IMG/VR virus record: IMGVR_UViG_3300043411_001777
Coordinates: 89,968-153,967 of that record
From: a virus
Strand: one strand, 5' to 3'
DNA length: 64,000 nucleotides
The notes below the pieces were generated by a model. That model was not told the origin of the DNA. It did not search any database and was given only the letters and a program-made list of their open reading frames with translations. Shown one piece after another: positions 10,861 to 15,276 of the stretch (the stretch's first letter is position 1; every line of letters starts with the position of its first letter). Made by a program: the position numbers and the translations under genes.

Positions 10861-13800
10861 TTAGGCCCCTTCTGCTTTAAGTGCTTGGAGAATCGAAGGG
10901 TGGAACTTCCAACCTGGGTTCCACCCTTCAAGGACAGCACCCGTAGAGTCTAATAACCGTAGCTCGCACGTTCCCGCCACATTCTTATGCCACCGATGAA
11001 GAAGATCACTCAAATGCTGAGCATTGGAGGGAGACAGACTAATACGCAGCTTATATTCCAGAATACTAGAATCGGCCTGGGGCGGACTGGACTGAGGCTG
11101 ACTGGGCTGCGCAGTAGCTCCCTCTATCACAGGGGCCATTACGCCCAGAGGGGCCTTTAGCATTTCTTCTGTCCACTGGATATGCTCCCCATACGGAGAC
11201 TGCGCAAAGGCCTCCAAAGTCTGGAGTTTGAATAGTGGTGCCAATGCCTCCGGGAAACGGGGAAGCTGCTCCCAATTCAGGCCCGCTTTAGCAGCCGCGT
11301 CAGGGTTCTTGATCTTCTTGTTTCCGACGTAACGAACCTCACCAGAACGCATGGAATCCAAATTCCAAGGAACCGACCAATCCTTACCGATTTCAACGTC
11401 CGAAGTGAGCGGGACGGGCCACTTCCGACCTTTAATGAAGTCGTTATTGATCATGATGAGACGGATGGTCTCAATCGCCTCTTCAAGGATTGAGCCGTGG
11501 ATCCGGAAGACCAATTCGTCGTGCATGGTGATGAACATCTTGACCTTGTCCAACCACCCCTTCTTCTTCACCATTCGGTAAATAAGAGCCATTGCGATTT
11601 TGGTAATGTCCGCCGAAAGACCCTGCACGGGTCCGTTAATCGAGTTTCGTTCGGATTTGGAGCGAAAGAACCCGTCGGGGCTATTGATATCCGGAAGGCT
11701 CAGTTTCCGACCGAAAGCGGTAAACACAAAGCCATTCTTGTGGGCGAAACTCTTCTGTGCCTCCCACCACCGAGCGAGGCCAGGATATTGCTTATCGAAG
11801 GTCGTCTTAATGCGATAGCCTTCGTTCTTATCGCCACCAACTGCACGCTGTGCAGCGCTCCCTCCGCCGCCATAAACCATAGCAAAATTAAGCTGTTTGG
11901 CCTTCTGACGCAGGAACTTCCAATCCGGCTTTTGCGCGGAGTTTTCGCCATACACCGACAATGCCGTCAGCGTGTGGAGGTCACCGATCTTATCGGAGCC
12001 GCACTTCGGACAACGAGGCGGAGGTGTCTTAGGCGTACCCTGGGTGAAATCACATTCGAATTTGAACTCGCAAGCACTGCAACGGAAATACTCAGCCAGC
12101 CATTTAGGCTCGCGGGACAGATTCGTGACAATGCGAAGCTCGACGCCCGAGTAATCGCAATTGAAGCTGAACAAATGTCCAGCTAGCGCGAAATTATGAC
12201 TTCCATCGACGGTAGCGCAAAACACTTTTTCCACACGATCAGTCGGCTCCACGGACTTAACAACCCAATAAGCCCTTTCTGAGCCCGTCCCGCCGCAATC
12301 TGGGCACTCGTCCTGCCAGACGTTGCCTTCCCCGTCGCACCGGTCTATTCCGACCCCGAGCCCGCCGCACCCGTGGCACTGGCCACCACCTTCCTCCGGG
12401 CCAACGTATATCGAGCGCATTCTAGCCCCCGGCCTTAACTCCCGGGTGGTAACTTCTACGTAGGTTTTACCTGAGTAATCCCAAACCGACCATCTATGCT
12501 CGGCAGTTGCCGATACAACTTTCTCGGACCCTCTTTGGGTAAAGATGATCTTTTGTAGGGGTTGCACCCCAAAACACCAAATTGGTGCGTCTACCCAAGT
12601 TCCGACCCCATTCTTATTTGTCAATAAACGTTGCGTGGTTCCAGCCAAACCCCCAATCTGTTTGATTCCATCTGCCGTAATAATCTCGGTCTCAGCCGCA
12701 AAGCAATTATGAACCACCAAACCGTTAGCTTGGAAGTTGTTCCCGTCAGGAACGGTCAGATCCCAAACCGCGGCCTCACCGTCGGAGCACACCGATTCCA
12801 ACTCATCTGTAAACGTCCGACCCCACGACTTGTCCTTTGGAAGCCGGTTTCCAGTGAGCATCAGAAGCTTCTCTTGATTTCGGGCCTCCGAAAAACCAAT
12901 CCGATCGGTGAACCGGATGATGTCTGCACTGTCCTCAATCCTCAGATGGTCATTCGAGCGGACAGAACGAACACCTTGCTTTAGAAGCAGAACCTGCAAC
13001 TCCTGAGCAACAGGCCCACCTATCAGCAAGTCAATGTGGTCAGTAACCTTGGCGTCCAACTCGAAAACACCGCGAAGGAATGAGGCTTGAACCCCAACCG
13101 AAGAAAGCCAAACTTCCTCGGGAATGGAATTCGGTACGTCCCCCCACTTTTTAGTGAAGTCCTGCACCCAACGAGCAAATTGATTCCCCCAGAATCGGAA
13201 CTCACCGTCTCCTAGGTACTTCTCCTTGAAGCTCACCCCGAATAGAAACTGGGACCAATCATTGGTGGTCCTCATGTAATCAACACCGCCCAACGAACCG
13301 AACTTGAAGCCCACAGAAACAGGGAGCTTGCCCTTGGACTCCACAAAGCCGGACCCGAACACGCGCCCAAGAAACTCAGCAACCAACTCGTCAAAGTGAG
13401 CCGGCACCCTTGCGGCCGTACGGCTCTGTCCAAGCGATTCTGCGAGCGGAGGCAGGGCGACATAGGGCTGGGCCGTGTACGCGTCTACAGCCGCAAGAAC
13501 ACACCGATCTCCGGGCCGTAGCTTGCCAGCCTCAACCCACGTCCTCCCCGTGTCGCGCTCAACACGCATAAGATGGTCGGACGTGACCCGTAGTTCATAG
13601 CCAGAGCGGGTCCGGACCCGAACCACGGGCTTAGTGCCATTATAGGTGACCGCACTTACCGGCTTCCAGCCATTTTCGGTCAGAACCAAATCCCCAATGG
13701 CCACATCACGAATCCGAAGGTCCCCTCGGGACGTTGGGATTCGTGCATTTTCATCCACGCAAGCAACTACGAACTCATCCTCTTCCGCTACGATTGTCTC

Positions 13801-15276
13801 ACGCAATCGTGTCATACATTCTGGCCGGGAGGTGTCATAGGATGCGGGAATGGCCTGGAGGTTAAGCGCGGGGATACCCTGTTTCCCGGAGCCCTCGCCT
13901 GCCGGGGTGGCAAACCGACCCGTGTCAACCTTATGTCCGTTGAAGCTGATCTTCATGGATCCGTCGATCGGGTCCGCGTCCTCAGCCATAGGATACAAAT
14001 AGGTTGACAGTGCCTTTTGCACTTCCCGGAATTTCTTCACCTTCCCCATGAAAGGGAATTGCTCACTGGCTTCCGTGACTACACGGTCCAATTCGTCTTT
14101 GGAGGTCTTAACCTGCTCAGACTTTTCTGTATAACGTAGCCCGGGAACCTCTAGCTCCTCAAAAAGGTGCCCCAACTGTTGGGGGGAGGAGATATCGTAA
14201 ACGTAGGGGTAAGTGACTTCCCCTTTCGGGGTGGCTTTTGTGATGAGAATGGACGGGTCAACATCCCGTACGGACTTAGCCTTAGCTAAGTCAATCCAAC
14301 TCGATATCCGCTTCGTTGCATCTTGTGGGTCAAACAGCTCAAACAGCTTGCGATAGAAACTAGGGGTACAGTCTCGCCCCAGAAGCTCTGTAGCTCCGGC
14401 ATACACTTCTTGGATTGCAGCAAGCCATTCAACATGGCCGAGCCTGATTAGCTCCTGGGTCTTATTCAGATCACGAAGAATTCGGCACCGCTCCATCCAC
14501 CGTGTGGAGGTAACACAGGACTTCTCAATGGCGTAGATAGCGGCTTGGTCAGCCTGCACTTTCGGCAGGAACTTCTCACATAGCAGGTAAGTGAAAATAC
14601 CGTCACCGCCGCCATACCAAAGGACAGCCTCATCCCTTGGGTCAAGCAAGGCAAAATTAAGGTCTTTCGTCCCTTCGGGGAACAGCTCGTCAAGTTCGAT
14701 CTGATCGAACCCCAACTCCTTGAAAGTTAGCTTCTTGAGCTTCTTTTCCTTCTGGTGGGCGTCCGTTAGATACACCAGAATCAAGGAATCTTCCCACGAC
14801 TTGTGGGAGTCGAAATTCCAATCCAGGCCCGGGATGCCTGTAAACTCCAAGAACTCCTGGTCAAACTTGCCATAATGGAACAGGGCAACATGACTGCCTT
14901 CCATAAAAGCGGCCATTAGCCTGCCAAATTCCTTCGTCCAAAGGCTTTGGGGGATATTGGCAGAAGCAATCTCTTCGTCCACCTTCCCTAGCTTCTCGTC
15001 GATACCGTGAGAAATTGGAAGGTAGTAGCCATTGACCCCGTCGGGAGAGAGGCAGATACCTACAATTCGGTCGACGGTCTTCCCGTTGAAAACCCGGTTA
15101 TCTAGGCCGGTGGTTTCAAGGTCAACGGCAATGCGTTTGGTAGGGGACGCAAGACACGTATCAATAGCCGCCGTAATGTTGTCTGGCGTAACAAGGTGGA
15201 ATTTGAAGTTGCTTAACCAATCCCGCTTACGGACTTGGATTTTGGAGTTTTCCTCAAGGAAGTCAAAAAAGCTCAT
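10861..15276 (-). CDS. polA: Family A (Pol I-type) DNA polymerase precursor with two tandem inteins
   Basis: The 1471-residue precursor would give a 937-residue polymerase after splicing. The 3'-5' proofreading domain is intact: D52-L-E54 (Exo I), H-Y-G-K-F-D (Exo II) and Y-G-G-G-D (Exo III). The polymerase domain has motif A C-D-Y-S-G-V-E-L-R (from residue 1040), motif B R-Q-K-A-K-Q-L-N-F-A-M-V-Y-G and motif C M-H-D-E-L-V-F. There is no 5'-3' exonuclease domain. Two inteins lie immediately before Cys1040 in motif A. A zinc-ribbon insertion (two C-x2-C pairs, about residues 1066-1092) lies between motifs A and B, and the last ~150 residues form an extra C-terminal region. ATG 15276 has AGGAG upstream; an in-frame start at 15315 lies upstream of that site. 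This is the phage replicative polymerase. Confidence 0.96.
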   Translation of the reverse strand: MSFFDFLEENSKIQVRKRDWLSNFKFHLVTPDNITAAIDTCLASPTKRIAVDLETTGLDNRVFNGKTVDRIVGICLSPDGVNGYYLPISHGIDEKLGKVDEEIASANIPQSLWTKEFGRLMAAFMEGSHVALFHYGKFDQEFLEFTGIPGLDWNFDSHKSWEDSLILVYLTDAHQKEKKLKKLTFKELGFDQIELDELFPEGTKDLNFALLDPRDEAVLWYGGGDGIFTYLLCEKFLPKVQADQAAIYAIEKSCVTSTRWMERCRILRDLNKTQELIRLGHVEWLAAIQEVYAGATELLGRDCTPSFYRKLFELFDPQDATKRISSWIDLAKAKSVRDVDPSILITKATPKGEVTYPYVYDISSPQQLGHLFEELEVPGLRYTEKSEQVKTSKDELDRVVTEASEQFPFMGKVKKFREVQKALSTYLYPMAEDADPIDGSMKISFNGHKVDTGRFATPAGEGSGKQGIPALNLQAIPASYDTSRPECMTRLRETIVAEEDEFVVACVDENARIPTSRGDLRIRDVAIGDLVLTENGWKPVSAVTYNGTKPVVRVRTRSGYELRVTSDHLMRVERDTGRTWVEAGKLRPGDRCVLAAVDAYTAQPYVALPPLAESLGQSRTAARVPAHFDELVAEFLGRVFGSGFVESKGKLPVSVGFKFGSLGGVDYMRTTNDWSQFLFGVSFKEKYLGDGEFRFWGNQFARWVQDFTKKWGDVPNSIPEEVWLSSVGVQASFLRGVFELDAKVTDHIDLLIGGPVAQELQVLLLKQGVRSVRSNDHLRIEDSADIIRFTDRIGFSEARNQEKLLMLTGNRLPKDKSWGRTFTDELESVCSDGEAAVWDLTVPDGNNFQANGLVVHNCFAAETEIITADGIKQIGGLAGTTQRLLTNKNGVGTWVDAPIWCFGVQPLQKIIFTQRGSEKVVSATAEHRWSVWDYSGKTYVEVTTRELRPGARMRSIYVGPEEGGGQCHGCGGLGVGIDRCDGEGNVWQDECPDCGGTGSERAYWVVKSVEPTDRVEKVFCATVDGSHNFALAGHLFSFNCDYSGVELRIVTNLSREPKWLAEYFRCSACEFKFECDFTQGTPKTPPPRCPKCGSDKIGDLHTLTALSVYGENSAQKPDWKFLRQKAKQLNFAMVYGGGGSAAQRAVGGDKNEGYRIKTTFDKQYPGLARWWEAQKSFAHKNGFVFTAFGRKLSLPDINSPDGFFRSKSERNSINGPVQGLSADITKIAMALIYRMVKKKGWLDKVKMFITMHDELVFRIHGSILEEAIETIRLIMINNDFIKGRKWPVPLTSDVEIGKDWSVPWNLDSMRSGEVRYVGNKKIKNPDAAAKAGLNWEQLPRFPEALAPLFKLQTLEAFAQSPYGEHIQWTEEMLKAPLGVMAPVIEGATAQPSQPQSSPPQADSSILEYKLRISLSPSNAQHLSDLLHRWHKNVAGTCELRLLDSTGAVLEGWNPGWKFHPSILQALKAEGA
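12160..12705 (-). other. Intein 2 in DNA polymerase (182-residue mini-intein with DnaJ-like zinc finger)
   Basis: It begins with the Cys right after Asn352 of intein 1 (C-F-A-A-E-T-E-I-I-T-A-D-G) and ends L-F-S-F-N182, followed by extein C-D-Y-S-G-V-E-L-R. Block B is T67-A-E-H70, and block F is C-A-T-V-D-G-S-H-N-F. The penultimate residue is Phe, not the usual His. There is no homing endonuclease. In its place is a cysteine-rich insertion, C110-H-G-C113-G-G-L-G, C123 and C134-P-D-C137-G-G-T-G, whose two C-x2-C-x-G-x-G units copy the DnaJ zinc-finger repeat. Zinc or redox control of splicing is an inference. Confidence 0.92.
12706..13761 (-). other. Intein 1 in DNA polymerase (352 residues, decayed LAGLIDADG endonuclease)
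   Basis: It starts at Cys506 of the precursor (V-V-A/C-V-D-E-N) and ends V-V-H-N, followed directly by the Cys that begins intein 2. Block A is C-V-D-E-N-A-R-I-P-T and block B is T60-S-D-H63. The C-terminal blocks are V-W-D-L-T-V-P-D-G-N-N-F and L-V-V-H351-N352. Between them lies a dodecapeptide-type endonuclease domain, but its first motif reads L-G-R-V-F-G-S-G-F-V (Ser137 where the catalytic Asp is expected) and the second reads R-G-V-F-E-L-D-A-K, so cutting activity is probably lost. The block F position normally His is Asn (N-N-F). Confidence 0.93.

Follow-up and report, generated by a model that had tools for sequence, protein, structure and literature searches.

We found that the family A DNA polymerase (PolA) of a large phage carries two inteins back to back at motif A, intein 1 of 352 aa followed by intein 2 of 182 aa, with zero extein residues between them and 534 intein residues in total. 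The gene lies in a window of 64,000 nucleotides, the whole stretch of DNA that was analysed, which comes from a 206,089-bp virus record (IMG/VR). The tandem is a real and unusual arrangement made of ordinary parts. Probably two class 1 inteins were acquired independently and became stacked: intein 1 was the resident, intein 2 landed on its Asn/Cys junction, and the two would leave the protein by sequential splicing.

Two abutting inteins at motif A of a phage DNA polymerase

The PolA open reading frame encodes 1471 aa and is uninterrupted across both inteins (Table 1). Genes next to it on the upstream side match families of primases and DnaB-like helicases. The polymerase is 45-55% identical to a clade of phage polymerases; relatives in viral contigs gave no match to a single protein query and were matched with a two-row extein alignment. 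The N-extein ends ...EEDEFVVA and the C-extein starts CDYSGVELR. It had been predicted from the letters of the window that two complete inteins occupy 12160-13761 with no extein residue between them, and both the protein junction and the DNA junction (...GTTCATAAT followed directly by TGCTTTGCG...) read exactly so. The pair is therefore not a double intein at separate sites, which has extein sequence between its members. The tandem junction signature has a single match in the window and none in 100 shuffles, and chance is thus not an issue. When both inteins are removed, PolA aligns gap-free through motif A with the polymerase of the huge phage LR745208.1, in agreement with the expectation that a normal motif A would be restored, and the numbering Cys506 and Asn1039 given for the outer residues is correct for the ATG at 15276.

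Table 1. Coordinates in the window of the polymerase gene, the two inteins and their motifs
Feature	Position	Strand	Basis
Family A DNA polymerase (PolA) gene, exonuclease and polymerase, carrying both inteins	10861..15276	(-)	Pfam DNA_pol_A, E 1.2e-57
Intein 1, 352 aa, CVDENARIP...NGLVVHN, degenerate LAGLIDADG endonuclease	12706..13761	(-)	Intein_splicing, E 1.2e-12; homologues in L091 and L093
Intein 1 block B, T-S-D-H (T60-H63)	13573..13584	(-)	Sequence; T, D and H invariant in alignment A2
Intein 1, LAGLIDADG helix 1, FLGRVFGSG, Ser in place of the catalytic Asp	13348..13374	(-)	Alignment; relatives FLGRFLGDG and FLGRFMGDG
Intein 1, LAGLIDADG helix 2, FLRGVFELDA, Asp retained, Gly gone	13051..13080	(-)	Alignment
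Intein 1 blocks F and G, VWDLTVPDGNNFQANGLVVHN, ending His-Asn	12706..12768	(-)	Sequence; TIGR01443 intein_Cterm
Intein 1/intein 2 junction, His-Asn/Cys-Phe	12700..12711	(-)	Sequence; Cys is +1 of intein 1 and Cys1 of intein 2
Intein 2, 182 aa, CFAAETEII...HLFSFN, NrdJ-type mini-intein without endonuclease	12160..12705	(-)	Identity to NrdJ inteins; AlphaFold2 Hint fold
Intein 2 block B, T-A-E-H	12496..12507	(-)	T67 and H70 invariant in family alignment A6
Intein 2 zinc-knuckle-like insert, CHGCGG...CPDCGG, at the endonuclease position of the family	12280..12387	(-)	Weak DnaJ_CXXCXGXG match, E 0.029; low model confidence
Intein 2 blocks F and G, VFCATVDGSHNFALAGHLFSFN; family-invariant F:4 Cys, penultimate Phe	12160..12225	(-)	Sequence, family alignment
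C-extein restart, motif A CDYSGVELR, Cys at +1	12133..12159	(-)	Comparison with empty and intein-bearing relatives

Each intein has blocks A, B, F and G of its own, as had been proposed, and the catalytic residues of class 1 inteins (Cys1, TxxH, a terminal Asn and a +1 Cys, with roles taken from PMC4031507) are present in both. In intein 1 these are Cys1, T60-S-D-H63, H351-N352 and the +1 Cys, and in intein 2 they are Cys1, T67-A-E-H70, N182 and the +1 Cys. Class 3 inteins have no nucleophile at position 1 and a Cys at F:4 (PMC4031507); intein 2 has the F:4 Cys but also Cys1, and so is not of this WCT type. On sequence, both look like complete class 1 inteins. A single intein with a duplicated segment, the finding that was to have refuted the prediction, was excluded by sequence comparison. 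The similarity between intein 1 and intein 2 is weak and at the level of the Hint domain (34% over 50 aa, E ~0.03-0.06), and tandem duplication of one intein was rejected because each half matches separate families far better than it matches the other half. Pfam and tblastn searches over the 206-kb record returned these two inteins only. The AlphaFold2 model of the whole tandem was poor (pLDDT 60, pTM 0.36).

The site itself can be followed through the relatives of the polymerase. Motif A is uninterrupted in 14 distinct PolA relatives, all with Ile at +1, and the empty site is Ala/Ile; all three intein-bearing alleles have Cys at this position. The motif reads A-I-D-[YF]-[SA]-G in the empty relatives and A-C-D-[YF]-[SG]-G in those with an intein. 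PolA of this clade is an intein hot spot.

Several side observations concern the polymerase and its inteins. A zinc-ribbon-like insertion, CSAC...CPKC, lies directly after motif A of the window PolA (~11950-12120, minus strand) and is common to PolA relatives. Members of the clade (L001, L011, L012 and L093) have inteins at two more sites, one before [SL]-NFAL and one after P-[VI]-Q-G, and the intein at the PVQG/PIQG site of L001 and L011 contains an internal GMT[AS]HN, which resembles a second intein C-terminus immediately ahead of the endonuclease part. In L092, a PolA from a different phage group, one intein is found at motif A (VE/CVKKGT...IIVHN/CDFSQMELR; here and below a slash marks a splice junction), so that motif A has served for insertion more than once. 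Intein-like stretches in L114 and L116-L119 seemingly start with Ser after Pro (TNP/SLRAGTKVLT); these could be Ser1 inteins or misplaced starts.

Separate ancestries of the two inteins

Sequence and position identify intein 1 as the motif A allele of this clade of phage polymerases. It scores 48.3 bits against PF14890 (Intein_splicing), above the curated cut-off of 35.8, and TIGR01445 and TIGR01443 are also above their cut-offs. Scanning DNA for inteins ahead of motif A returned two IMG/VR loci of the same polymerase clade, L091 and L093, with one intein each at the identical site (AA/CFAxGSLVST...LAHN/CDFGGVELR). In BLAST against a small comparison set, intein 1 aligns with these over its full length (~430 alignment columns, 27-30% identity, E 1e-36 to 1e-41). 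The statement that all are the same allele is based on site plus full-length homology; none of the polymerases found carries a highly identical intein 1 by itself, the inteins of L091 and L093 being only ~30% identical. The three share host clade, site, -1 Ala and +1 Cys, whereas the inteins of L091 and L093 are single and have both LAGLIDADG motifs intact (GDG and DADG). Intein 1 is 76-77 aa shorter, and the change from GDG to GSG in its first motif removes one of the two catalytic Asp residues that characterize a homing-competent LAGLIDADG enzyme. In its block F, Asn stands at the usual His position (PDGNNF).

Intein 2 belongs to a different, endonuclease-bearing family, within which it falls in a supported 13-row group on the tree (95/91). 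Its N-terminal part is 46-57% identical to inteins of class II ribonucleotide reductase (NrdJ), with identities of 46/38% to the NrdJ intein of L084 and 57/59% to the second intein of a tandem in L100, described below. The best match of its splicing domain is 54% identical; a sister relationship to the second L100 intein, which shows this highest identity, was rejected because tree support is absent. Against Pfam Intein_splicing, intein 2 reaches E 1.8e-5 and 25 bits, below the gathering score of 35.8, which is an annotation threshold and no defining biochemical feature; its membership is assigned through NrdJ homology and fold. The AlphaFold2 model of intein 2 has a pLDDT of 84 overall and 92-98 in the Hint part, with the CxxC insert at low confidence, and its best PDB matches are the mini-inteins Ssp DnaB, Npu DnaB and Npu DnaE (TM 0.70-0.79 by target length). 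Intein 2 is thus confidently predicted to form a complete Hint (horseshoe) domain.

In phages, the hosts of the intein 2 family include NrdJ, PAPS-reductase-like, nuclease, primase and portal genes, as labels that we read from the sequences. The 19 relatives of intein 2 that were examined are ~295-350 aa long, and a simple pattern test detects the second LAGLIDADG motif in nearly all of them. NrdJ-type phage inteins (L084, L097-L113 and that of Thermobifida phage P318) share Cys1, TxxH, the F:4 Cys and the +1 Cys with intein 2, and many of them follow an Asn. They keep the LAGLIDADG endonuclease and end TGN, whereas intein 2 has a CxxC...CxxC insert, ends SFN and, at 182 aa with no LAGLIDADG motif, is not a homing-competent element of that kind. 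The CxxC motif is present in 0 of the 19 family inteins checked, and no further copy of the DnaJ-like CxxCGG...CxxCGG knuckle was found in the 206-kb record.

A second tandem and the probable order of arrival

The PolA pair is not the only one of its kind. The NrdJ of L100 (IMGVR_UViG_3300045256_000188) contains two abutting inteins of 343 and 350 aa (ALNN/CLEFNT...LTGN/CLPAEEE...HSRN/CGFVST), and here too the second intein sits on the Asn/Cys junction of the first. This NrdJ tandem is a second, independent case. It differs from the PolA pair in that its members belong to the same family, being 49% identical to each other, and both retain endonuclease motifs. A profile check of the 888 long ORFs of the collected loci returned exactly two abutting pairs, those of PolA and the L100 NrdJ, and one further pair in the same NrdJ, 12 extein residues apart. 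A strict DNA pattern for the tandem junction gave three viral matches, all single DnaE inteins ahead of the extein CFQEDT, and two matches in 85k species genomes, both false. These zeros are weak because, on the inteins met here, the genome pattern has a sensitivity of ~8% of pairs and 17% of His-Asn types; the viral pattern was slightly different. Other candidate tandems in phage and plasmid records were rejected, as their matches cover ~1 kb and are single inteins.

The record that holds the NrdJ tandem is rich in such elements. At L136 (IMGVR_UViG_3300045256_000188, G003:C1:44000-58000), the NrdJ ORF of 3046 aa has apparently six inteins, the back-to-back pair plus four at other sites, and terminase-, portal- and helicase-like ORFs of the record have several inteins each.

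We next considered how the PolA stack was built. Of 19 inteins of the NrdJ-type family, 13 are preceded by Asn (-1) and every one is followed by Cys (+1). By hand count, ~5 of ~10 distinct insertion sites have the -1 Asn (binomial P 6e-5 against a 5% background and 1.6e-3 against 10%), and the enrichment across the family is in part the same NrdJ site used repeatedly. Single motif A alleles are intein-1-like, the empty site is Ala/Ile, and the family of intein 2 is often found at Asn/Cys, from which we infer that intein 1 came first and intein 2 second. Intein 2 requires a +1 Cys, which the empty site does not have and the intein 1 allele provides, and this also points to intein 1 as the earlier resident. 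Intein 1 would have spread by homing to motif A, bringing the +1 Cys in place of Ile by co-conversion, and its endonuclease would have decayed after arrival; the NrdJ-type intein 2 would then have inserted exactly at the Asn/Cys junction made by intein 1 and lost its own endonuclease after insertion. The window is not sister to L091 and L093 on the polymerase tree, and two changes are needed, forced by starred branches; this is what would be expected from homing rather than simple descent. The long branch that the window forms there counts against this reading. The donor was searched for as an NrdJ in the phage's own record, and none was found there. Of the two origins first suggested, independent arrival at the same target site and invasion of a splice junction, the alleles of L091 and L093, the Ala/Ile empty site and the Asn/Cys habit of the family favor the latter, with the direction being intein 2 onto the C-terminal junction of intein 1.

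It could be argued that the order was the reverse, with intein 2 first at motif A and intein 1 homing in just ahead of it later, since the intein 1 family has an apparently active endonuclease for this gene in L091 and L093. We consider this unlikely because the empty Ala/Ile site offers intein 2 no +1 Cys, because intein 2 would have split the target of intein 1, and because, among the relatives, lone inteins at motif A were intein-1-like and none was intein-2-like. Given that the source is an IMG/VR virus record, the tandem might also be an assembly artefact that joins two strain variants. This would be very surprising, as the junctions share only AATTGC, a 6-nt stretch too short to mislead an assembler, the reading frame is kept, and an independent tandem exists in another record.

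Proposed splicing through a shared cysteine

Each intein of the PolA stack is expected to form its own Hint domain and to excise itself by the four-step class 1 route. While intein 2 is a linear thioester, the thiol of the shared Cys would be unavailable for the transesterification of intein 1, and once intein 1 has moved the N-extein onto this thiol, intein 2 could not begin. Because one Cys is common to both reactions, class 1 chemistry would make them mutually exclusive in time and splicing sequential. Either order would lead to the same product, VVA-CDYSGVELR. The original prediction that splicing must be ordered is therefore upheld insofar as the reactions would exclude each other via Cys1 of intein 2, and goes too far insofar as the chemistry permits either order. 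We have a slight preference for intein 2 leaving first (last in, first out), because each intein would then splice between its usual neighbors, Asn and Cys for intein 2 and Ala and Cys-Asp for intein 1. Against this, intein 1 is translated earlier and could act sooner. An expected side reaction would be cleavage at the inner junction, with the Asn of intein 1 cyclizing while held as a thioester.

Two other fates of the insertion were weighed. It had been suggested that all 534 residues could exit as one unit, with Cys1 of intein 1 cooperating with the terminal Asn of intein 2 and the inner Asn and Cys remaining silent. The outer residues needed for this are present, and the halves of split inteins are known to cross-pair, but the front half of intein 1 would have to find the back half of intein 2, a member of another family, across two complete domains. 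Each intein also has its own set of blocks with all inner catalytic residues kept, and intein 2 alone models as a complete Hint domain, so that composite excision appears highly improbable. Decay of the double insertion, in which one intein no longer splices fully and cleavage products or a slow-maturing polymerase result, is somewhat less far-fetched yet still improbable. The first endonuclease motif of intein 1 is broken, and the Asn in place of the block F His in intein 1, together with the missing penultimate His of intein 2, suggests that one of them could be slow. However, Gly occupies the penultimate position in the intein 2 family (TGN/C), so the lack of His is normal there; Cys1, TxxH, the terminal Asn and the +1 Cys are all in place, and the host is a replicative polymerase with intact motifs and a frame that is open through both inteins. 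Sequential splicing of two complete inteins remains the reading that we favor.

Known systems offer partial parallels. In Haloferacales, MCM-a and MCM-d are two inteins of different alleles at separate sites of one gene, each of which cuts its own target, and the MCM-d intein comes with an extein change from Pro to Ser (PMC10643990). Like the PolA pair, these are inteins of different alleles close together in one replication protein, with an extein change carried along that compares with Ile to Cys here; unlike them, the PolA inteins are not separated by any extein residue, the second occupying the splice junction of the first. An engineered dual-intein domain consists of Ssp DnaE N159A, a linker and Ssp DnaB C1A (PMC4339811). 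It likewise fuses two inteins in tandem in one polypeptide, but is artificial, joined by a linker and mutated to cleave, whereas the PolA pair is natural, linker-free and equipped with all catalytic residues. Among the open-licence papers searched, no natural back-to-back intein pair was found.

The usual view allows one intein per site, such that an occupied target is closed. The two independent abutting pairs suggest instead that an occupied site is open to re-invasion at its splice junction, and insertion there would be chemically safe because the Asn and Cys are already present. We tentatively propose, as a possibility and little more, that the Asn/Cys exit junction of a resident intein may be a recurrent landing site for NrdJ-type inteins, so that inteins stack, that the shared Cys may interlock the two reactions and so force sequential removal, and that the zinc-knuckle-like insert of intein 2 may tie polymerase maturation to metal or redox state. 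The PolA pair is a natural test of one cysteine serving two splicing reactions and may provide a ready-made scaffold for protein ligation in two ordered steps.
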